Under the pieces are notes generated by a model. That model saw only the letters and a program-made list of their open reading frames with translations. It had not been told where the DNA came from and did not search any database. From Geobacter sp. SVR (GTDB lineage Bacteria; Desulfobacterota; Desulfuromonadia; Geobacterales; Pseudopelobacteraceae), in assembly GCF_016865365.1 (NCBI RefSeq), contig NZ_AP024469.1, positions 1,417,001 through 1,481,000 on the forward strand: a DNA stretch of 64,000 nt, read 5' to 3'. The translations under genes and the position numbers were made by a program. This document shows positions 46,120 to 56,134 of the stretch, piece after piece (position 1 is the stretch's first letter; the number at the start of each line of letters is the position of its first letter).

Positions 46120-47145
46120 CTACATCTTGTGACACTTGCCGCAGTCATCCTGGACAGGGAAGGCGTCCTTGCCTTTGTTATGGCAGGCGCCACAAGATTT
46201 GCCCTGTTCCATGTCAGCCATGGTGGCCTTTGATGCGCCGGCCTTGTATGGGAAGATCTTGGTGTGGCAATCGGCACATTTGTAGGCCTGCAGATGGAAT
46301 TCGTGACTGAAGGTGGCAACGCCGGCGTCGGTCTTGAAGGTGATCGTGCCCGGCTTCAGCCCTTTGTGGCACTTGACGCAATCGCCGTTGGAGGAGAATG
46401 CTTCCTTGCCGTTGTGGCAGGTGCCGCATGATTTGCCTTTGGCCATGTCAGCCATGGTGGCTTTGCCGACCACGGTGCGATAGGGGAAGACCTTGGTGTG
46501 GCAATCACTGCACTTGTATGCTTCCAGATGGAAGGAGTGGCTGAAGGTCGCCGGTGCAACCCCCTTGAGATTGAAGGTGATCTCTTTGGGTTTGCCCCCT
46601 TTGTGGCAACGGTCGCAATTGGCAGTCACCGTAAAGGCGCGCTTGCCGTTATGGCAGGCGCCGCACGTGCGGCCTTTCTCCATCTGGGCCATTGTTACGC
46701 CTTTGTCTTTGCCGGTGAGCACTTTACCGTTGTGGCAGCTCTTGCAGGCACCTCCGGTTTTTGCGATGTGGGTTGCATGGCTGAAGGTTGCCTCGCCGAA
46801 TCCGCTGACCCGATAGGTGATGTCACGCGGCTTGCCCTTGTGGCAGCGGACGCAGTCTTTTTCAGATGCTACACTGAAAGCCTTGACGCCGGAATGGCAG
46901 GCGCCGCACGATTTTGTCTTTTCCATTTCCGCCATGGTGAAATGGCGGCGGTTTCTCAGATTGAAAATGGCATCATGGCAGATTTTGCAGTTATTGTTGT
47001 ATCGGGACAGGTGAAATTCGTGGCTGAATACGACCGGCTCGGCGTTCTTGAAGGTGAAGCGGATATCTTTCGTCTCCACGGCAACGGCGCACGCGGCTGT
47101 TGCCATGATAAGTGCCATGGCCCAAAGAGAAACTCTTTTCAGCAT
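46120..47145 (-). CDS. Dodecaheme c-type cytochrome of four triheme repeats
   Basis: A 341-residue exported cytochrome with a signal peptide (about 1-23, SLWAMALIMATAACAVA) and twelve CXXCH sites, in order CKICH, CGACH, CVRCH, CKSCH, CGACH, CDRCH, CSDCH, CGTCH, CVKCH, CADCH, CGACH, CGKCH. They form four units of about 75 residues. Each unit starts FSHxxH (two distal His), has a TMAxMxxG turn just before the second site, and ends with CxxCHKG, which suggests two bis-His haems and one possible His-Met haem per unit (inference by analogy with triheme c7-type domains). Units three and four are very alike. It is plausibly a periplasmic wire for extracellular electron transfer. ATG at 47145 with upstream GAGGAG. 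Confidence 0.95.
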   Translation of the reverse strand: MLKRVSLWAMALIMATAACAVAVETKDIRFTFKNAEPVVFSHEFHLSRYNNNCKICHDAIFNLRNRRHFTMAEMEKTKSCGACHSGVKAFSVASEKDCVRCHKGKPRDITYRVSGFGEATFSHATHIAKTGGACKSCHNGKVLTGKDKGVTMAQMEKGRTCGACHNGKRAFTVTANCDRCHKGGKPKEITFNLKGVAPATFSHSFHLEAYKCSDCHTKVFPYRTVVGKATMADMAKGKSCGTCHNGKEAFSSNGDCVKCHKGLKPGTITFKTDAGVATFSHEFHLQAYKCADCHTKIFPYKAGASKATMADMEQGKSCGACHNKGKDAFPVQDDCGKCHKM

Positions 47146-47190
47146 GTCTCGACTCCTCGTCATCACAGGATTAACTTTTTCAAGCGAGAA

Positions 47191-47219
47191 AGTATACAGA
47201 TCGGCCCGTATGACGTCAA
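47191..47219 (-). promoter_or_regulatory. Putative strong sigma-70 promoter of the dodecaheme cytochrome
   Basis: On the minus strand TTGACG (47219-47214) and TATACT (47196-47191) are 17 bases apart, five of six matches in each hexamer. Start expected near 47184, about 40 bases before the ATG. Confidence 0.68.
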
Positions 47220-47265
47220 TCCCAAAGTGAGCCCGGTTCTGCGCCATCCGGTGCCGGTTTTGCGG

Positions 47266-47294
47266 TTGATACACCCCCACAGCTGTGTTATACA
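47266..47294 (+). promoter_or_regulatory. Putative sigma-70 promoter of nadC
   Basis: TTGATA (47266-47271), a 17-base spacer and TATACA (47289-47294). It diverges from the cytochrome promoter 47 bases away and lies 33 bases before the nadC ATG. Confidence 0.55.
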
Positions 47295-47327
47295 AAATCA
47301 TTATTTTTAAACAGGTGGATTCTCTTG

Positions 47328-48152
47328 ATGCTCTCACTCGACCGTCTCATCGATCTGGCTCTGGCGGAAGACATTCATACCGGCGATATTACCACTCAGG
47401 CTGTCGTGCCGGGCAAGCGCCCGGCCACGGCCCGGCTGATTGCCAAAGAAAACATGGTTCTGGCAGGTCTGTTCGTGGCAGAGCGGGTTTTTCACCGCCT
47501 GAGTGCCGACGTATGCTTCACCGCCTGTCAGGCGGAAGGGGCACCGGTGATGAAGGGCGATCTGATCGCCACCATCGCAGGGGATGCCGCCGATCTCCTC
47601 ATGGGAGAAAGGGTGGCCCTCAACCTGCTCCAGCGCCTCTCCGGCATCGCCACCCTGACCGCACGCTTTGTCGAGGCAGTACGGGGAACAAAAGTCCGCA
47701 TCGTTGATACCCGCAAAACCACGCCGGGGCTCCGGGAACTTGAAAAGTACGCCGTCAGGCAGGGGGGGGGCATCAACCACCGCACCGGGCTCTATGACGG
47801 CATCCTGATCAAGGAAAACCATATCGCCGCAGCCGGCGGCATTGCCGAGGCGATCACCCGCGCCCGCGCCTACATACCCCATACCCTCAAGATCGAAATC
47901 GAAACCGAAACACTGGCTCAGGTGGACCAGGCCCTGGCTGCCGGCGCCGATATCATCATGCTGGACAACATGTGTCTGGCAGACATGCGCACCGCTGTGG
48001 AAACCGTTGCCGGGCGGGCTCTGCTGGAGGCATCCGGAGGGGTCAATCTTGACACGGTGCGCGCCATCGCCGAGACGGGGGTCGACATCATTTCCGTAGG
48101 GGCGCTGACGCATTCCTCACGGGCCATGGACATCTCGATGCTATTGGACTGA
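47328..48152 (+). CDS. nadC: Quinolinate phosphoribosyltransferase (nicotinate-nucleotide pyrophosphorylase)
   Basis: Makes nicotinate mononucleotide from quinolinate and PRPP, releasing CO2 and pyrophosphate, in de novo NAD synthesis. The 274 residues contain the expected motifs: ALAEDIHTGDITTQ at the N terminus, DTRKTTPGLRELEKYAVRQG and GGINHRTGLYDGILIKENH for the phosphate and substrate site, and EIETETLAQVDQAL with IIMLDNM near the C terminus. ATG at 47328, preceded by AGGTGG; the TTG just before it is less likely. birA and coaX follow on the same strand, a group of cofactor genes. Confidence 0.97.
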   Translation: MLSLDRLIDLALAEDIHTGDITTQAVVPGKRPATARLIAKENMVLAGLFVAERVFHRLSADVCFTACQAEGAPVMKGDLIATIAGDAADLLMGERVALNLLQRLSGIATLTARFVEAVRGTKVRIVDTRKTTPGLRELEKYAVRQGGGINHRTGLYDGILIKENHIAAAGGIAEAITRARAYIPHTLKIEIETETLAQVDQALAAGADIIMLDNMCLADMRTAVETVAGRALLEASGGVNLDTVRAIAETGVDIISVGALTHSSRAMDISMLLD

Positions 48153-50097: not shown

Positions 50098-52194
50098 ATG
50101 GGACAGTTCGAGACAAGCAAGATTCGTAACCTGGGTATCATTGCACATGGCGGCGCCGGCAAGACCTCGCTGGCGGAGGCGGTTCTGTTCAACACCGGTA
50201 TGATCGACCGGTTGGGACGCGTGGATGACGGCACGGCCACGATGGATTTCGAGCCGGAAGAGGTCAAACGCCGCATCTCGATTACCTCCGCCCTCGACCA
50301 TTGCGAGTGGAACGGGCATTCGATCCACCTGGTGGATACCCCTGGCTACGGCAATTTCATCGCTGATACCCGCGCCTGCATGCGCGCGCTCGATTGCGCG
50401 GTCGTGATCCTTTCGGCCATTTCCGGTGTCAAGGCCCAGACTGAAGAGGTGTGGAGCTGGGCCAATGAATTCGAAATCCCGCGCATAGCATTCGTCAACA
50501 AAATGGACCGCGAACGGGCCAGCTTCCTGCGCGCCATCGACGATATGGAGAAGACCCTGGGTGCCCGCGGTGTCGCCATACAGATGCCGATCGGGTCCGA
50601 GGAGAATTTCAACGGCATCATCGACCTGATTCGCATGAAGGCCTGCTTTTATCCCAAGGATGGTTCCGGCGTCTGCACCGAGAGAGAGATTCCGGCAGAT
50701 TGCCTGGATGAAGCACAGCGCCTGCGCGAGCACATGATCGAAATCGTGGCGGAAGCCTACGACGCCTTGACCGAAAAATACCTCGAGACCGGAGAGCTGA
50801 CCGAGGAGGAGATCATCGACGGTCTCCGTGTCGGCAGCATGCGCAATACCTTCACACCAGTGCTGTGCGGTTCCGCCACCGAAAATATCGGCGTCAGGCA
50901 GCTCCTGGACGCTGTGTGCGCCTATCTGCCCTCACCGCTGGATCGCACCAGGGCGGTGGGCCAGCATCCCAAGACCGGCGATATCATCGAACGGGCCGCC
51001 GACGAAAAGGACCCTTTCTCGGCGCTGGTATTCAAAACCACCTCGGATCCCTACACCGGCAAGATCACCATCTTCCGCGTCTATTCCGGCGTACTGAACT
51101 CCGACTCCGTCATCTACAACTCCAGCAAAGGGGTGGAGGAGCGGATCGGCCAGATTTACGAGCTGGAGGGCAAGAAACAACATCCCATCAAACAGGCTGT
51201 GGCCGGCGATATCGTGGCCGTGGCCAAGCTGAAGGAGACGGTTACCGGCGATACCCTGTGCGACAATGCCAACCCGATCGTTTACGAGCCGGCCAAACAG
51301 CTGTTGCCGGTGATCTCCTATGCCATCGAGCCGAAAACAAAGTCGGATGAGGACAAGATCCACGGGGCGCTTCACCGGATGATCGAGGAGGAGCCGACCC
51401 TGGAATCGCATCGCGATCCGCAGACCAAGGAATTCATCATCTCCGGCATGGGGCAGGTGCATCTGGAGGTGATCGTCGAGAAGATGAAGCGGAAATTCGG
51501 GGTGGACGTAGTACTGAAGACCCCCAAGGTCCCGTATCTGGAGACGATTCGCGGTTCGGCCAAGGTACAGGGCAAATACAAGAAACAGTCCGGCGGACGG
51601 GGCCAGTACGGCGACTGCTGGATCGAGATGGCCCCGAACGGGCGTGGAGAAGGATACCTGTTCGAGGACAAGATCGTGGGTGGGGTCATCCCGCGCCAAT
51701 ATATTCCCGCTGTTGACAAGGGCATCCAGGATGCATCGCTGGAGGGATTCCTGGCAGGGTACCCCGTGGTCGATTTCAGGGTAGGACTGTATGACGGCTC
51801 ATTCCACACAGTGGATTCATCCGAGATGGCTTTCAAGGTGGCCGGTTCCATGGCATTCAAAAAGGCGATGGAAATATGCAAGCCGGTACTGCTGGAGCCG
51901 ATCGTAAACCTGAAGGTGACGGTGCCTGATGAGAACATGGGCGATGTCATTGGTGACCTGAACTCCCGCCGTGGCAAGGTGGTGGGGGTAGAGCCGAAAG
52001 CGAACTCCCAGATCATCCGTGCCGTGGTGCCGATGTCGGAAGTGCTGGCCTATTCCAATGACCTGAAATCCATGACCAGCGACCGCGGCATGTTCACGAC
52101 GGAATTTTCACATTACGAAGAATTGCCGACGCATCTTTCGCAGAAGGTGATTGCCGAGGCCAATGCAAAGAAAGAGAAGAACAATCACGCCTGA
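50098..52194 (+). CDS. EF-G-like translational GTPase (second EF-G type)
   Basis: A 698-residue protein with EF-G domain order (G domain, II, III, IV, V). It differs from canonical EF-G in its GTPase motifs: the P-loop is AHGGAGKTSL instead of AHIDAGKTTT, switch II is DTPGYGNF instead of DTPGHVDF so the catalytic His is Tyr, and NKMD is intact. SGGRGQYGDCWIEM and GYPVVDFRVGLYDGSFHTVD are domain IV and V features. It fits the EF-G-like family present beside canonical fusA in many bacteria, of uncertain function. ATG at 50098 is preceded by a perfect AAAGGAGG. It leads the cluster with SPOR, MglA-like and kinase-like genes, although gaps of 77 and 106 bases occur. Confidence 0.92.
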   Translation: MGQFETSKIRNLGIIAHGGAGKTSLAEAVLFNTGMIDRLGRVDDGTATMDFEPEEVKRRISITSALDHCEWNGHSIHLVDTPGYGNFIADTRACMRALDCAVVILSAISGVKAQTEEVWSWANEFEIPRIAFVNKMDRERASFLRAIDDMEKTLGARGVAIQMPIGSEENFNGIIDLIRMKACFYPKDGSGVCTEREIPADCLDEAQRLREHMIEIVAEAYDALTEKYLETGELTEEEIIDGLRVGSMRNTFTPVLCGSATENIGVRQLLDAVCAYLPSPLDRTRAVGQHPKTGDIIERAADEKDPFSALVFKTTSDPYTGKITIFRVYSGVLNSDSVIYNSSKGVEERIGQIYELEGKKQHPIKQAVAGDIVAVAKLKETVTGDTLCDNANPIVYEPAKQLLPVISYAIEPKTKSDEDKIHGALHRMIEEEPTLESHRDPQTKEFIISGMGQVHLEVIVEKMKRKFGVDVVLKTPKVPYLETIRGSAKVQGKYKKQSGGRGQYGDCWIEMAPNGRGEGYLFEDKIVGGVIPRQYIPAVDKGIQDASLEGFLAGYPVVDFRVGLYDGSFHTVDSSEMAFKVAGSMAFKKAMEICKPVLLEPIVNLKVTVPDENMGDVIGDLNSRRGKVVGVEPKANSQIIRAVVPMSEVLAYSNDLKSMTSDRGMFTTEFSHYEELPTHLSQKVIAEANAKKEKNNHA

Positions 52195-52271
52195 CGAACA
52201 GCCCGTTCCCGCACCTGCCGGGCCTTCTGCACGATCTGCCCAGGCGTAGTCACGATGGAGGAATGCGTACA

Positions 52272-53366
52272 ATGGATTTCAAGTTCAGCAAAGATGCGGA
52301 AAAACATACGGCCAAGCAGTCCGCTTCCGGTGAGAAGGGACGCCAGAATGCGCTGTTGCTGCTTCTGTTGGTGCTGGTGTGTGGATATTCGTATCTCTAC
52401 TTCTTCACCGGGCTGATCAGACCGCAGCAAGCCCCGAAACCTGCCGAGGCTCCGGCGCCACAGGTTGTAAAGAAGCCATTGCCCACCCCTGCCGGGCAAC
52501 CCGGGACTGAAGCCCCGCCGGCCGGAGGCGAGAAAAAGGATGCAGCCACACCGGTAAAGGCCGAATCACCCAAGGCCGTCCCCGGTGAAGCTGCTACTGC
52601 ACCAGGGACTCCCGCCGCAGTGGGGGGGCAAAAAGCCGATCAGGCCAGACCTGCCGAGAAAAAAGCTGCGCCGGTACCGACGCCGCAGGCAGCACAACAG
52701 GTCGCAGAGGCCAAACCGGAAGCGAAGCCGGCTGCCGCAAAGAAGCCCGCTACAGCGCCCGAAAAGAAGCCCGCTGCCGTTGGAACGGAAAAAAAGGCCG
52801 CTGGCCCGAAGTCTTCTGAACATCAGAAACATTCGCCGGCTGAGCTAAAGACATCCCAGGCTGTCGCCCAGAAACCGGCCAAGAAGCCGGTAGCGGGAAG
52901 TGCCGCTCCTGCTGGGAAATGGACCGTGGTGGTGGGCAATTATATCTTGGAAGATGCCATGGCGACCGATCTGGCCCGTGTCAGGAAAGCCGGTTTCAAG
53001 GCCTCCGTCCAACCGGGTGTCCGCAAAAAGGCGCCGATGAATCGTCTCTTCCTGGCCGAGTTTGCCGACCGGCACGCTGCACAGGCTGAACTGGAAAAGC
53101 TCAAGCGCTACACCTCCGACGCCTTCATTGTGGATCAGGGGGACAAGCATGCCGTCTATGCCGGCTCCTATCTGCTTGATTCCCGTGCGGCTTCCGAAAA
53201 GGAGCGTCTTGCCGCTGCCGGCCTGACTGTGGCGGTACGGCATGTCGAGGTGCCGATCCCCTCCAAGAATTTGATCACAGGGGTATTTGCCGACAAAGGG
53301 GCAGCCGAGACGGCGGTAAGAAAGCTGAAAGAGGCGGGTTTGAGCGGCGCCTACATTCGTCAGTAG
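52272..53366 (+). CDS. SPOR-domain membrane protein with long Ala/Pro/Lys linker
   Basis: A 364-residue bitopic inner-membrane protein: basic cytoplasmic start, one helix (about 27-47, ALLLLLLVLVCGYSYLYFF), then a very long low-complexity linker rich in Ala, Pro, Lys and Glu (about 55-215), and two SPOR-like repeats at the C terminus (about 218-364; GKWTVVVGNYILEDAMA and KHAVYAGSYLLDSRAASEK). SPOR domains bind denuded glycan at division septa or sites of wall remodelling. ATG at 52272 was chosen because GGAGGA lies nine bases before it; an ATG nine bases upstream abuts that site. Five bases separate its stop from the next gene. Confidence 0.85.
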   Translation: MDFKFSKDAEKHTAKQSASGEKGRQNALLLLLLVLVCGYSYLYFFTGLIRPQQAPKPAEAPAPQVVKKPLPTPAGQPGTEAPPAGGEKKDAATPVKAESPKAVPGEAATAPGTPAAVGGQKADQARPAEKKAAPVPTPQAAQQVAEAKPEAKPAAAKKPATAPEKKPAAVGTEKKAAGPKSSEHQKHSPAELKTSQAVAQKPAKKPVAGSAAPAGKWTVVVGNYILEDAMATDLARVRKAGFKASVQPGVRKKAPMNRLFLAEFADRHAAQAELEKLKRYTSDAFIVDQGDKHAVYAGSYLLDSRAASEKERLAAAGLTVAVRHVEVPIPSKNLITGVFADKGAAETAVRKLKEAGLSGAYIRQ

Positions 53367-53370
53367 GAAG

Positions 53371-54300
53371 ATGTCGCAGAAAATCAGACTCAGGGTTTCC
53401 CCAGCGGTCGGCCTGTTTGTTGGGCCGGGGGTGAATGCCGAAGAAAAACTGAGAGGAGTTTCCGCTGCCGCGGACATGCCGGTGGTGGAACGCGTATCGC
53501 TCTTGTTTTGCATGATGCAGGAGGCGGATGGCCGCGTCAGGACCGCGGCCTCCGCCGCATTTGCCACATTGCCGGTAGAATCGGTCCTGGATTTCATTGC
53601 AACCCCGGACGCTCATCCCGCTGTTCTCGACTTCCTGGCCAGATTTCACCATTCCACTCCACAGATCGCAACCGCCCTCCTGGAATCCCCGGGGCTTTCC
53701 GCCAGAGCTCGCGAGTTCCTGTCGAAAGCCGTACCGCCGGTCGCAGGCATTAGGCAGGAACAGGGTGTTGACCGGGGTGCCGGCGATCTCGAGAGCGATG
53801 CCGATATGTCCGAAGGGGAAAAAGTCCCTGGTGATGAGGAGCCGAAAACTGCCGTTGACGAGAGTGAGGTCAGCGAAGAGGGGGAAGAGTTCCTCAACAA
53901 GTACAGGCTTGCCCAGCAGATGGGGGTCGGGGAGAAGATCAAGACAGCACTCACTGGCGACAAGGAATGGCGGGCCATTTTAATCAAAGATACCAACAAA
54001 CTGGTGTCGGGCAGCGTCATAAAAAATCCGCGCCTTACGGAAGGAGAGGTGCTGACCATCCTCAAGGCCGGCCTCCAGAACGATGAAGTCATTCGCCTGA
54101 TCTGCGCCAACAAGGATTGGGTCAAAAACTACAAGATCCGTAAAGCCCTGGTGGAGAATCCCAAGACGCCTCTTCCGAATGCACTGCGCTATCTTGCTTC
54201 AATGGGGGAAAAGGATATTGCCGCGTATGCAAAAAGCAAAAACATCTCATCCGTACTCTCATCCCAGGCCAAGCGCATCATACTTGCCAAAGGCAACTGA
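53371..54300 (+). CDS. Two-part helical repeat protein, function unknown
   Basis: A 309-residue soluble protein I cannot assign. The N-terminal third (about 1-125) consists of short helices in a HEAT-like style (RVSLLFCMMQEADGRVRTAA and the later HPAVLDFLARFHHST); an acidic low-complexity linker follows (about 130-180, rich in Glu, Asp, Ser); the C-terminal part (about 180-309) again has helical repeats with INPRL/ENPKTP-type turns (IKNPRLTEGEVLTIL, VENPKTPLPNALRYL). It lies five bases after the SPOR gene and 12 bases before the MglA-like gene, so it is likely part of the same unit and could be a scaffold. No catalytic motif seen. Confidence 0.75.
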   Translation: MSQKIRLRVSPAVGLFVGPGVNAEEKLRGVSAAADMPVVERVSLLFCMMQEADGRVRTAASAAFATLPVESVLDFIATPDAHPAVLDFLARFHHSTPQIATALLESPGLSARAREFLSKAVPPVAGIRQEQGVDRGAGDLESDADMSEGEKVPGDEEPKTAVDESEVSEEGEEFLNKYRLAQQMGVGEKIKTALTGDKEWRAILIKDTNKLVSGSVIKNPRLTEGEVLTILKAGLQNDEVIRLICANKDWVKNYKIRKALVENPKTPLPNALRYLASMGEKDIAAYAKSKNISSVLSSQAKRIILAKGN

Positions 54301-54312
54301 ACAGGAGCGCAG

Positions 54313-55200
54313 ATGGCAATAGTCAATCATGCCAAGCGTGAAATCAACGCAAAGATCGTGTATTTTGGAGCGGAAGGGACCGGTAAGGCCACTTCGTTGC
54401 GCTATGTGTACGACCGAATCAAGCCATCCCTGCGTGGTGAACTGAAAAGTCTGCCGGCCAGCGGTGCCTCGCTGCTCTTTTTCGATTTCAGTCCCTTCGA
54501 GCAGCCGGTATTTTCCGGTTATCGACTGCGGCTCCATATCTACACCTTGCAGGGGAAAGTTGCCAACCCGGCAGCCTGGAAAATGACCCTTAAAGGAGCT
54601 GACGGTCTCGTTGTCGTGGCGGATGCCGCACCTGCGAAATTCGCCTCTCTGCAGGAATGTCTCGGTCAACTGCGCCATTATCTTGCGGCATATGGGGTGG
54701 GGCGCGAAGATATACCGCTGGTTCTCCAGCTCAACAAGGCCGATCTGGCCGGACCGATTCAACCGGCGGTAATATCGCGCGAAACAGGTATTGCCGAAGA
54801 ACTGGTCTGTCCGACGTCGGCCCTCTCAGGTGAACGGGTATTGGAGACCCTGGCCACCCTTTCACGACTGATTCTCGAGCGCCTGCGTCATCGTGACGAT
54901 GTGCAGAAGGCGGAGGCTCCGGCAGACGAAAAGGCGCCGGCAGACGAAAAGGCGCCGGACGACCAGACGGCAGATGAACCGGAGCAGCCGGATTTGGTCG
55001 ATACCACGGGGCCGGTGGATAATCGGTCTTTCGGGACGGACGGGGACGGTAGGGCTCCGATGCAGGTCACCGTGACGGATGAGGGCATACATGCAGAGGG
55101 AAACACGGTAAAGATACCGCTGAAACTGACCGGAGCAGGCGAAGTGCATCATCTGGTCATCACGGTCACGGTGGCGCCGGAAAAACTGAACCCGCAATGA
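54313..55200 (+). CDS. MglA-like small GTPase homologue with degenerate active site
   Basis: A 295-residue protein whose first 195 residues align with MglA, the polarity GTPase: INAKIVYFGAEGTGKATSLR, LLFFDFSPFE, RLRLHIYTLQGKV, VVVADAAP and LQLNKADL match its motifs in order. Key residues are changed: the Walker A Ser/Thr that holds Mg is Ala26 (GKAT for GKTT), and the switch II PGQ is QGK (G81, K82). The NKxD base motif is kept, so it may bind nucleotide without normal hydrolysis. A charged linker with ADEKAP repeats and a C-terminal beta-rich domain (about 245-295) are added. Regulation by GAP (MglB) is not evident nearby. Confidence 0.82.
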   Translation: MAIVNHAKREINAKIVYFGAEGTGKATSLRYVYDRIKPSLRGELKSLPASGASLLFFDFSPFEQPVFSGYRLRLHIYTLQGKVANPAAWKMTLKGADGLVVVADAAPAKFASLQECLGQLRHYLAAYGVGREDIPLVLQLNKADLAGPIQPAVISRETGIAEELVCPTSALSGERVLETLATLSRLILERLRHRDDVQKAEAPADEKAPADEKAPDDQTADEPEQPDLVDTTGPVDNRSFGTDGDGRAPMQVTVTDEGIHAEGNTVKIPLKLTGAGEVHHLVITVTVAPEKLNPQ

Positions 55201-55233
55201 CCGGCCGGCTTCAGGGCCTCTGATGATGTATAC

Positions 55234-55251
55234 GCATTACCCTTGTAATGC
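55234..55251. repeat. Short perfect inverted repeat before the kinase/BON gene
   Basis: GCATTAC-CCTT-GTAATGC, seven pairs with a four-base loop, 55 bases before the ATG at 55307. No T-run follows, so it is not a terminator; a small regulator site or RNA hairpin is possible. Confidence 0.4.
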
Positions 55252-55306
55252 ATAACCACAACATGATATATAGCCCTCGGTAACAGATAATTGCGGGGAG
55301 GCTTCG

Positions 55307-56134
55307 ATGCCAGTCATTACCATATCCCGGGAAATGGGAACAGGCGCCTATCAGATTGCCACTGAGGTTGCAAAAAAGCTGAAGTTCACCTTGGTCGATG
55401 GTGCATGTATCAACGCCTGTGCTCCCAAATATGGGCTTTCACCTGACATGCTCCAGATGGTCGATGAAAAACCGCCCTCCTACATCACTGCCGAGGATCG
55501 GAAGCGTGCCGCAGCTCTCAATACGATTGAGCTGATGCTGCTCGATTTTGCCCGCAAGGGGAATGTAATCCTGTACGGCCGGGGCGGCCAGGATCTGCTG
55601 AAAGGGTGCAACAATGTGTTGAGGCTGCGATTTATCGCTGATTTCGAAGAGCGCGTAGAGCGCTTTGCGGAACGCGAATGGATCGATCCCGATCTGGCGC
55701 AGTCCATGATCCGCCGCAGCGACCATCAACGTGGCGGTTTCATACATTTTTACTTTGACCGTGCCTGGAATGACCCTCTGGGCTATGATATGACCTTCAA
55801 TACCTCCCGTCTTTCACCGACCTCAATTGTCGAAAGTATTGTGGCCGCCGCCCGGGACCCCTTCCTGAAAGATGCAGAAAAGGCGGCAGTTGAGCAGATC
55901 GATAACACGATTCTTGAGAAAAAAATAGAAACTGCCTTGCTGAACTCTCCTGACCTGGATTACCGGCCATTCAAGATCGAAGTGGAGAAGGGCTGTGCCG
56001 TGCTGAGCGGCTACCTTGCGTGCGAAGAGGAAAAGAAGAATGCGATCCGGATCGCTGAATCGATCAAAGGGATCAAAACGGTGAAAGAGGACATTCACAT
56101 CGTGAATTACAAGGCTTACCGGGACAAGAGTTGA
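55307..56134 (+). CDS. Cytidylate-kinase-like protein fused to a BON domain
   Basis: A 275-residue protein. Residues 1-190 match the cytidylate-kinase-like family: VITISREMGTGAYQIATEVA at the nucleotide-binding loop (which, as in that family, lacks the standard GK[ST]), DFARKGNVILYGRGGQ, FEERVERFAERE and a following arginine-rich IRRSDHQRGGF, and FYFDRAWNDPLGYDMTFNTS. The final 75 residues are a BON-like domain (ALLNSPDLDYRPFKIEVEKG, LSGYL, IKGIKTVKEDI), usually found in periplasmic or membrane-binding proteins. No signal peptide, so the fusion is cytoplasmic. The substrate is unknown. GCGGGGAGG precedes the ATG. The last 19 bases overlap the convergent PHP gene. Confidence 0.83.
   Translation: MPVITISREMGTGAYQIATEVAKKLKFTLVDGACINACAPKYGLSPDMLQMVDEKPPSYITAEDRKRAAALNTIELMLLDFARKGNVILYGRGGQDLLKGCNNVLRLRFIADFEERVERFAEREWIDPDLAQSMIRRSDHQRGGFIHFYFDRAWNDPLGYDMTFNTSRLSPTSIVESIVAAARDPFLKDAEKAAVEQIDNTILEKKIETALLNSPDLDYRPFKIEVEKGCAVLSGYLACEEEKKNAIRIAESIKGIKTVKEDIHIVNYKAYRDKS

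Follow-up and report, generated by a model that had tools for sequence, protein, structure and literature searches.

Is an MglA-type protein with a broken GTPase site the product of a local accident, or the mark of a lineage that disabled its switch and kept the protein? This question is raised by a gene of 295 codons in the 64,000-nucleotide stretch of the Geobacter sp. SVR genome that we analysed (hereafter the window; features in Table 1). A sequence-only reading of this DNA had described the product as an MglA-like pseudo-GTPase with Ala26 in the P-loop, QGK in switch II and an intact NKAD, and the translated open reading frame and its alignment agree with each of these residues. We showed by comparing sequences that the residues for hydrolysis and Mg2+ binding have been lost family-wide and from one origin, in a gene that is under purifying selection and has conserved neighbours. 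What is new here is an MglA-type protein, apparently a pseudo-GTPase, that is fixed across the whole order Geobacterales, whereas relatives outside it sit in the same gene cluster with their motifs intact.

The assignment to the MglA family is borne out by sequence and by the fold of the G domain (phmmer, Foldseek and VIA). The protein matches Thermus MglA (3t12) over residues 1–191 with an expectation value (E) of 1.2e-37, and Myxococcus MglA with E about 7e-31 (phmmer). Its AlphaFold2 model, built from 60 sequences (mean predicted local distance difference test score, pLDDT, 88.1), shows a G domain followed, after a disordered linker, by a tail of four strands (residues 251–286, pLDDT above 90); Foldseek matches it to MglA (3t1o, E 6.8e-21; about 35–38% identity to MglA), and VIA aligns residues 2–195 with MglA at Z 28.0 and a root-mean-square deviation of 1.9. 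Pfam returned Arf alone, just below its cut-off (21.8 against 22.3 bits), and NCBIfam returned no family. The residue set of a working GTPase in MglA Group 1 (GKT, switch I RT and TVPGQ) is replaced by Ala26, Ser53-Leu54 and QGK, and at 295 residues the protein also departs from the typical, non-strict traits of MglA, which are a nearby MglB gene and a length below 240 residues. It has the traits of long-form MglA ('MglA2'), namely an MglA-like G domain followed by a C-terminal domain, with no MglB partner found. The source genome encodes a second, normal MglA (G000:C1:4010897; GKTT, ERT, TVPGQ and NKRD), which has a roadblock gene just upstream (Pfam Robl_LC7, E 2.7e-14).

We compared the active sites of three sets: 63 sequences from the window's order (in-order sequences), 25 long forms of organisms outside it, and 34 canonical MglA proteins, for which 34 of the 57 genomes in the first kin search were the source. 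Grouping followed taxonomy, not motif, except that L038–L040 were placed inside the order from their position in the tree; the outside set comprises the 25 sequences that were fetched out of a longer list of matches, and some are near copies (L110/L143; L085/L091/L126). Left out of the counts were the window itself (L001), copies of loci already in the set (L032–L037, L068–L080), entries replaced by larger versions (L081–L084, L087, L088, L092, L093, L096), L141, which shares its contig with L040, and L147, from the genome that also gave L030. Thr54, Gln82, Ser/Thr26, Arg53, Pro80 and Arg89 are each retained in 25/25 outside long forms and in 34/34 canonical proteins; inside the order, they are retained in 0/63, 3/63 (L005, L060, L061), 19/63, 12/63, 15/63 and 0/63 sequences, respectively, position 89 being Trp in all 63. 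The complete set of six residues (K25, T/S26, T54, Q82, K142 and D144) is found in 0/63, 25/25 and 34/34 sequences, which supports the pseudo-GTPase interpretation. Lys25 and Gly19 are retained in 63/63 in-order sequences, Lys142 in 39/63, Asp144 in 46/63 and the full [NT]KxD in 37/63; the G3 motif TxxG is present in the window protein (Thr78 and Gly81, within YTLQGK82V), Thr78 being kept in 60/63 and replaced by Ser in the remaining 3. Ala26 and Lys82, whose conservation the sequence-only reading had proposed to check, are not conserved: position 26 is G in 21 sequences, S in 12, A in 8, T in 7, R in 6, E in 5, Q in 2, K in 1 and N in 1, and at position 82 E occurs in 12, P in 10, K in 9, R in 8 and D in 7, nine further residues making up the rest. 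It is the loss itself that is conserved, and the most telling changes, Arg53-Thr54 to Ser53-Leu54 and Arg89 to Trp, were missing from that reading. The fixed signature of the clade is the loss of Thr54 together with the change of Arg89 to Trp. L005, which has GKTT and Gln82, carries QGQ instead of PGQ and has no Thr54; it alone lost just Thr54 among five tested residues. No in-order sequence has a full PGQ (0/63), so a local mutation is not the cause, and since the loss is common to all 63, an accident or sequencing error peculiar to the window is ruled out. The same counts bear on whether the protein might still hydrolyse GTP in an uncommon way, borrowing residues from the neighbouring protein UP or some other partner. 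Such proteins exist, class (iii) pseudo-GTPases such as RGK being active with odd motifs (PMC5593906), and Gln82 does survive in those three sequences; yet 14 different residues occupy position 82 with no conserved replacement, and position 54 is Leu or Met in 61/63, which makes this mechanism very improbable.

That a former GTPase gene is merely heading for loss, retained by chance, is hardly credible. Its rarity elsewhere in the class is what could be said for it: in a draw of 117 class genomes, the long form was found, at that search's sensitivity, in only 3/59 genomes from outside the order (G075, G096, G102), the best match in the remaining 56 being nearly always a canonical protein of about 195 residues and two having no match. 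Inside the order, however, the long protein is present in 57/57 genomes of the first kin search (the source and its kin, up to the same order) and in 58/58 of the second, overlapping draw, and Trp89 was gained and then became invariant. The ratio of nonsynonymous to synonymous substitution rates (dN/dS) of the G domain is 0.035–0.18 for the lineages measured (NG86, 17 pairs with measurable dS) and 0.046–0.13 with YN00 (the 13 of 27 pairs that were computable), compared with 0–0.04 for the canonical MglA of the same genomes. The G domain of the degenerate clade is under purifying selection. A pseudogene is ruled out by the NG86 values.

To place the loss, we built a thorough maximum-likelihood tree from 99 G domains, including 11 of the 34 canonical sequences, on 185 columns after removal of the seven trait columns. 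The degenerate in-order sequences form a clade with support 100/99, canonical MglA splits off at 100/100, and the window protein groups with the long forms. Because intact long forms need at least 2 changes on the tree, forced by the starred branches, with the root placed on canonical MglA the degenerate clade sits inside an intact long-form family; hence a working GTPase was lost and the pocket drifted afterwards. The fewest changes required are 1 for Thr54, 1 for Trp89, 0 for Lys25, 4 for Gln82, 9 for Thr26, 6 for K142 and 8 for D144. Four sequences outside the window's 38-row subclade (L046, L049, L140 and L142) keep GKTT and NKRD, have lost Thr54 and Gln82 and carry Trp89, a pattern suggesting that switch I and probably Gln82 went first, that Trp89 was gained and that pocket drift came later; as the deepest forks within the degenerate clade are poorly resolved, we can only infer this order.

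The residues that were lost and kept suggest one nucleotide state in particular. Arg53 and Gln82 are the catalytic residues of MglA, Thr54 and Asp58 bind the Mg2+ of a GTP analogue, and in MglA-GDP a closed, self-inhibited switch II blocks the Mg2+ and gamma-phosphate sites (PMC6876712, PMC6785124). Since Thr54, the arginine finger, Gln82 and mostly Thr26 have been lost and Lys25 never has, a GDP-like, Mg2+-free form fits best. VIA aligned the model with MglA-GDP chains at Z 28.0, 27.7, 27.1, 26.9 and 26.2, with 3t1v (GDP) at 25.8 and with GTP-type chains at 25.9, 25.7, 24.7, 23.3 and 23.0, rows less than 1 apart being counted as tied. In the three-class scheme of pseudo-GTPases (PMC5593906), a constitutively GTP-bound, hydrolysis-dead, always-on switch would belong to class (ii), like eukaryotic Rnd. 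The loss of Gln82 and Arg53 could by itself trap GTP, and the P-loop lysine and, in 37/63, [NT]KxD are there to hold it; the protein ligands of the Mg2+ of the GTP form are nevertheless gone (Thr54 in 63/63, Ser/Thr26 in 44/63) and the model is nearest the GDP forms, if weakly, so that we consider an always-on switch improbable. More weight, though still on the unlikely side, goes to a class (i) protein that binds no nucleotide and uses its G domain as a structural platform, with Lys25 and Gly19 kept for folding, as there are precedents in p190RhoGAP pG1/pG2, CENP-M and fungal dynein LIC (PMC5593906), G4 drifts ([NT]KxD in just 37/63) and 15/63 sequences have R, E, Q, K or N at position 26. 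What speaks for a ligand is that Lys25 and Gly19 are invariant in a drifting pocket, Lys25 without a single change on the tree, and that the window protein retains NKAD. Mutants of Myxococcus xanthus MglA argue in the same direction: no MglA is detectable in G19A, K25A and NKxD mutants, from which the authors conclude that the protein needs to bind GTP to be stable, nor is any detectable in T26N and Q82A/R (PMC3000849). In the same study, T54A gave a stable protein that is diffuse and has lost much of its function, and P80A a stable one that does not function.

The MglA-like gene sits in a conserved cluster of fusA2, a SPOR gene, a gene for a helical repeat protein (UP) and itself. UP lies directly 5' of the MglA-like gene in 53/57 kin loci, the SPOR gene is present in 54/57 (the other 3 are cut by contig ends), and the longer kin loci repeatedly show the arrangement coaX-fusA2-SPOR-UP-MglA-like-(other genes)-kinase-PHP-nth. 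Eight intact long forms also directly follow UP (L110, L124, L126, L129, L132, L134, L135 and L138, the last from coordinates), several of these loci carrying fusA2, coaX or SPOR genes too. The SPOR protein has two SPOR stretches and an N-terminal hydrophobic stretch, judged by eye to be a membrane span. SPOR domains bind bare septal cell wall, and this, together with a helical protein next to it, suggests an adaptor at the division site or new pole. We infer the nucleotide state, the partners and the cell location of the window protein from these observations, and our best explanation, which we hold to be reasonably probable, is a conserved pseudo-GTPase of the long-form branch, probably MglA-GDP-like and Mg2+-free, that would serve in the cytoplasm as a fixed scaffold, next to a SPOR protein in the membrane. 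The steps from absent hydrolysis to a GDP-like scaffold and on to a septal or polar site are increasingly inferential. The ancestral long-form MglA would have had a working GTP switch, probably already within a fusA2-SPOR-UP cluster. In the ancestor of Geobacterales the switch would have been disabled, Thr54 being lost once and Arg89 changed to Trp once, with Gln82 probably lost at about the same time and Thr26 and NKxD drifting later, lineage by lineage; the G-domain fold, Gly19, Lys25, the new Trp89, the beta domain of the tail and, mostly, the gene order would have been retained. The G domain would then stay MglA-GDP-like and Mg2+-free, its invariant P-loop lysine holding GDP or some other ligand with a phosphate and Trp89 fixing the switch II helix. 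Together with the SPOR protein and UP, the protein would form a permanent adaptor on the cytoplasmic side of the division site or new pole, and GTP-driven relocation would fall to the canonical MglA and its roadblock partner, which are encoded elsewhere. A bolder form of this scheme, which we offer only tentatively, makes Trp89 an internal wedge by which switch II is frozen in its closed, GDP-like form, Lys25 the holder of a permanent ligand and the protein, with UP and SPOR, a landmark of the pole or division site, while other orders and classes would still run the module as a switch.

Several observations weigh against a GDP-like scaffold of this kind. [NT]KxD has been lost in 26/63 sequences, and many members may thus not bind guanine; as single changes at Gly19, Lys25, Thr26, Gln82 and NKxD abolish detectable MglA in M. 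xanthus (PMC3000849), the clade must be stabilised otherwise or by another ligand. The preference for GDP forms, seen with the model of the window protein alone, is small, the two sets of Z overlap, and the preference may be a bias of the method. The tree is built on 185 columns, and a few of its branches are long (L030, L139). Constraint is weaker on the tail (last 45 residues) than on the G domain (dN/dS 0.07–0.46, YN00, same 13 pairs), and the window's own branch is without usable dS, the window-L005 pair being saturated (18 NG86 pairs in all). The putative partnership with SPOR and UP is suggested by gene order alone. UP is missing beside the MglA-like gene in 4/57 kin loci (L030, L058, L059, L064), where the SPOR gene is the direct neighbour, and is thus not an obligatory partner everywhere; in three of these genomes (G010, G036, G039) UP was found nowhere at E <= 1e-8, the fourth being outside that draw. 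Among intact long-form loci of the phylum, 8/14 have no UP in the fetched stretch (L125, L127, L128, L130, L131, L133, L136, L137). UP itself is present in 142/146 class genomes, in-order ones included, and 25/26 fetched UP loci from other orders of the class have no adjoining MglA-like gene; at loci that no longer have that gene, UP still adjoins fusA2 and, mostly, a SPOR gene.

The charged linker and the C-terminal beta domain, which the sequence-only reading had described as additions to MglA, are both present, and the absence of the beta domain from canonical MglA is also upheld: its profile gives E < 0.01 (E for a set of 123 proteins) in 62/63 in-order sequences and 0/34 canonical ones. 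It does so in 8/25 intact long forms as well, and the tail is not an addition of the window protein's own. The domain occurs as one copy in the source genome, and in 20 genomes its profile matched in 16, once each and always inside the MglA-like gene. Four tails gave no Pfam match up to E 10, and a profile of 17 rows gave none among PDB sequences; the VIA rows for the model spanned residues 3–196 only, that is, not the tail.

With MglA of M. xanthus and Thermus thermophilus (Group 1; 5ymx, 6hjo, 6h17, 3t1o), the window protein shares the fold, TxxG for DxxG, the GK of the P-loop and NKxD; it differs in having lost Thr26, Arg53, Thr54 and the PGQ of residues 80–82, in having gained Trp89, in its added linker and beta tail, and in that no MglB-like gene was found adjoining. 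With long-form MglA of other orders and classes, it shares adjacency to UP (eight loci) and a related beta tail (8/25), but there the GTPase motifs are intact (25/25) and Arg89 is kept. Compared with the eukaryotic pseudo-GTPases (p190RhoGAP pG1/pG2, CENP-M, Rnd and RGK), to which we take it to be related just at the superfamily level, it is bacterial and MglA-type and, unlike them, is fixed across a whole order beside an intact paralogue. In 2010, a G. sulfurreducens 'MglA2' (NP_952979.1, 291 residues, 39% identical to M. xanthus MglA, no MglB), probably the orthologue of the window protein, was listed in table 2 of PMC3000849; the sections examined of that paper hold no comment on lost active-site residues in its MglA2 group, which mixes several long proteins. 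A classification of prokaryotic small GTPases covered proteins of up to 240 residues, with 404/488 members of its MglA subclade coupled to MglB and 449/488 small, and the words 'Geobacter' and 'pseudo' are absent from its main text (PMC4316618). In the open-licence literature, no title or abstract opening among the matches listed announces an MglA-type pseudo-GTPase, and no published study of the SPOR, helical-repeat and long-MglA module beside fusA2, to which the present data point, was found. If the scheme is true, a Ras-like switch of bacteria became, in a single conversion, a fixed scaffold free of Mg2+ that a whole order now carries. The two branches look like a natural before-and-after pair, with the same gene and cluster, a working site outside the order, a dead site inside, and both kept; the non-switching contribution of a polarity-type GTPase is therefore directly testable.

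Table 1. The MglA-like gene, its parts and its two upstream neighbours, in window coordinates
Feature	Position	Strand	Basis and remarks
SPOR-domain protein gene, 367 codons	52263..53366	+	ends 4 bases 5' of UP; Pfam SPOR E 1.3e-13
UP protein gene, 309 aa	53371..54300	+	ends 12 bases 5' of the MglA-like gene; all-helical AlphaFold2 model
AGGAG, resembling a ribosome-binding site	54303..54307	+	5 bases 5' of the ATG; putative, read off the sequence
MglA-family pseudo-GTPase gene	54313..55200	+	open reading frame, 295 aa, ATG start; phmmer to MglA structures
MglA-like G domain, residues 1–192	54313..54888	+	AlphaFold2 pLDDT mostly >90; Foldseek and VIA to MglA
P-loop GAEGTGKA, residues 19–26	54367..54390	+	Gly19 and Lys25 retained, Thr26 to Ala
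Switch I, residues 53–54	54469..54474	+	Ser-Leu; Arg-Thr in MglA (arginine finger and Mg-binding Thr); alignment
Switch II, residues 80–82	54550..54558	+	QGK; PGQ in MglA; alignment
Trp89	54577..54579	+	invariant in the degenerate clade (63/63)
NKAD, G4 guanine motif, residues 141–144	54733..54744	+	present in the window copy, drifting in the clade
Charged low-confidence linker, residues ~202–249	54916..55059	+	ten-residue pLDDT means 38–64
C-terminal beta domain, residues ~250–287 (IPLxI...VTVxV)	55060..55173	+	four strands; ten-residue pLDDT means 93–96

The UP model (mean pLDDT 83.9) has two helical parts joined by a low-confidence linker and found no Foldseek match at E <= 0.001. With a profile of the UP family, the matches were to 9sah, a synthetic fusion protein (E 1.6e-6), and to alphaRep repeat chains, the latter with E no better than 0.012; as these matches to synthetic repeat proteins are weak, 'helical repeat' is used as a cautious label. 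In Pfam, no family exceeded its cut-off, the best being DUF4274 (E 0.0056, C-terminal half). The C-terminal part of UP is strikingly conserved, with many invariant K, R, W and N. For NG86, UP sequences were taken from stop to stop, and UP dN may be inflated by non-coding leaders. Within the order, family f2 (L058, L059, L062, L064) has a very long Glu/Ala-rich linker in its MglA-like protein, whose total length reaches up to 406 residues, and UP is missing in 3 of the four f2 genomes seen (L058, L059, L064).

No MglB was found beside long-form genes by single-sequence phmmer at E <= 1e-3, a search that a very divergent roadblock protein could escape; the sole MglB match among the loci lies beside the canonical mglA of L002, the other canonical loci having too little flank. 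A gene of the MgtC family lies 3' of the MglA-like gene in many kin, for example at L033:5893-6561 (+; Pfam E 3.6e-41) and L041:2283-2963 (-), and, being absent from that place in the window, is not part of the unit. A scan of 51900–55500 gave 1 promoter-like site against 1.4 in shuffles and 11 terminator-like sites against 4.3 (standard deviation 2.0); the minus strand carries 9 of the latter, and 2, which overlap each other, fall within the MglA-like gene; none of these was used as evidence. At 55307–56134, the window encodes a cytidylate-kinase-like domain (Pfam Cytidylate_kin2, E 3.1e-37) fused to a C-terminal BON domain (E 4.2e-12), and a homologue lies 3' in most kin loci that reach far enough. 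On the minus strand at 46120–47337, adjoining nadC, is a gene for a multi-haem protein of the cytochrome c7 type with four repeats (Pfam Cytochrome_C7, E 1.5e-71).
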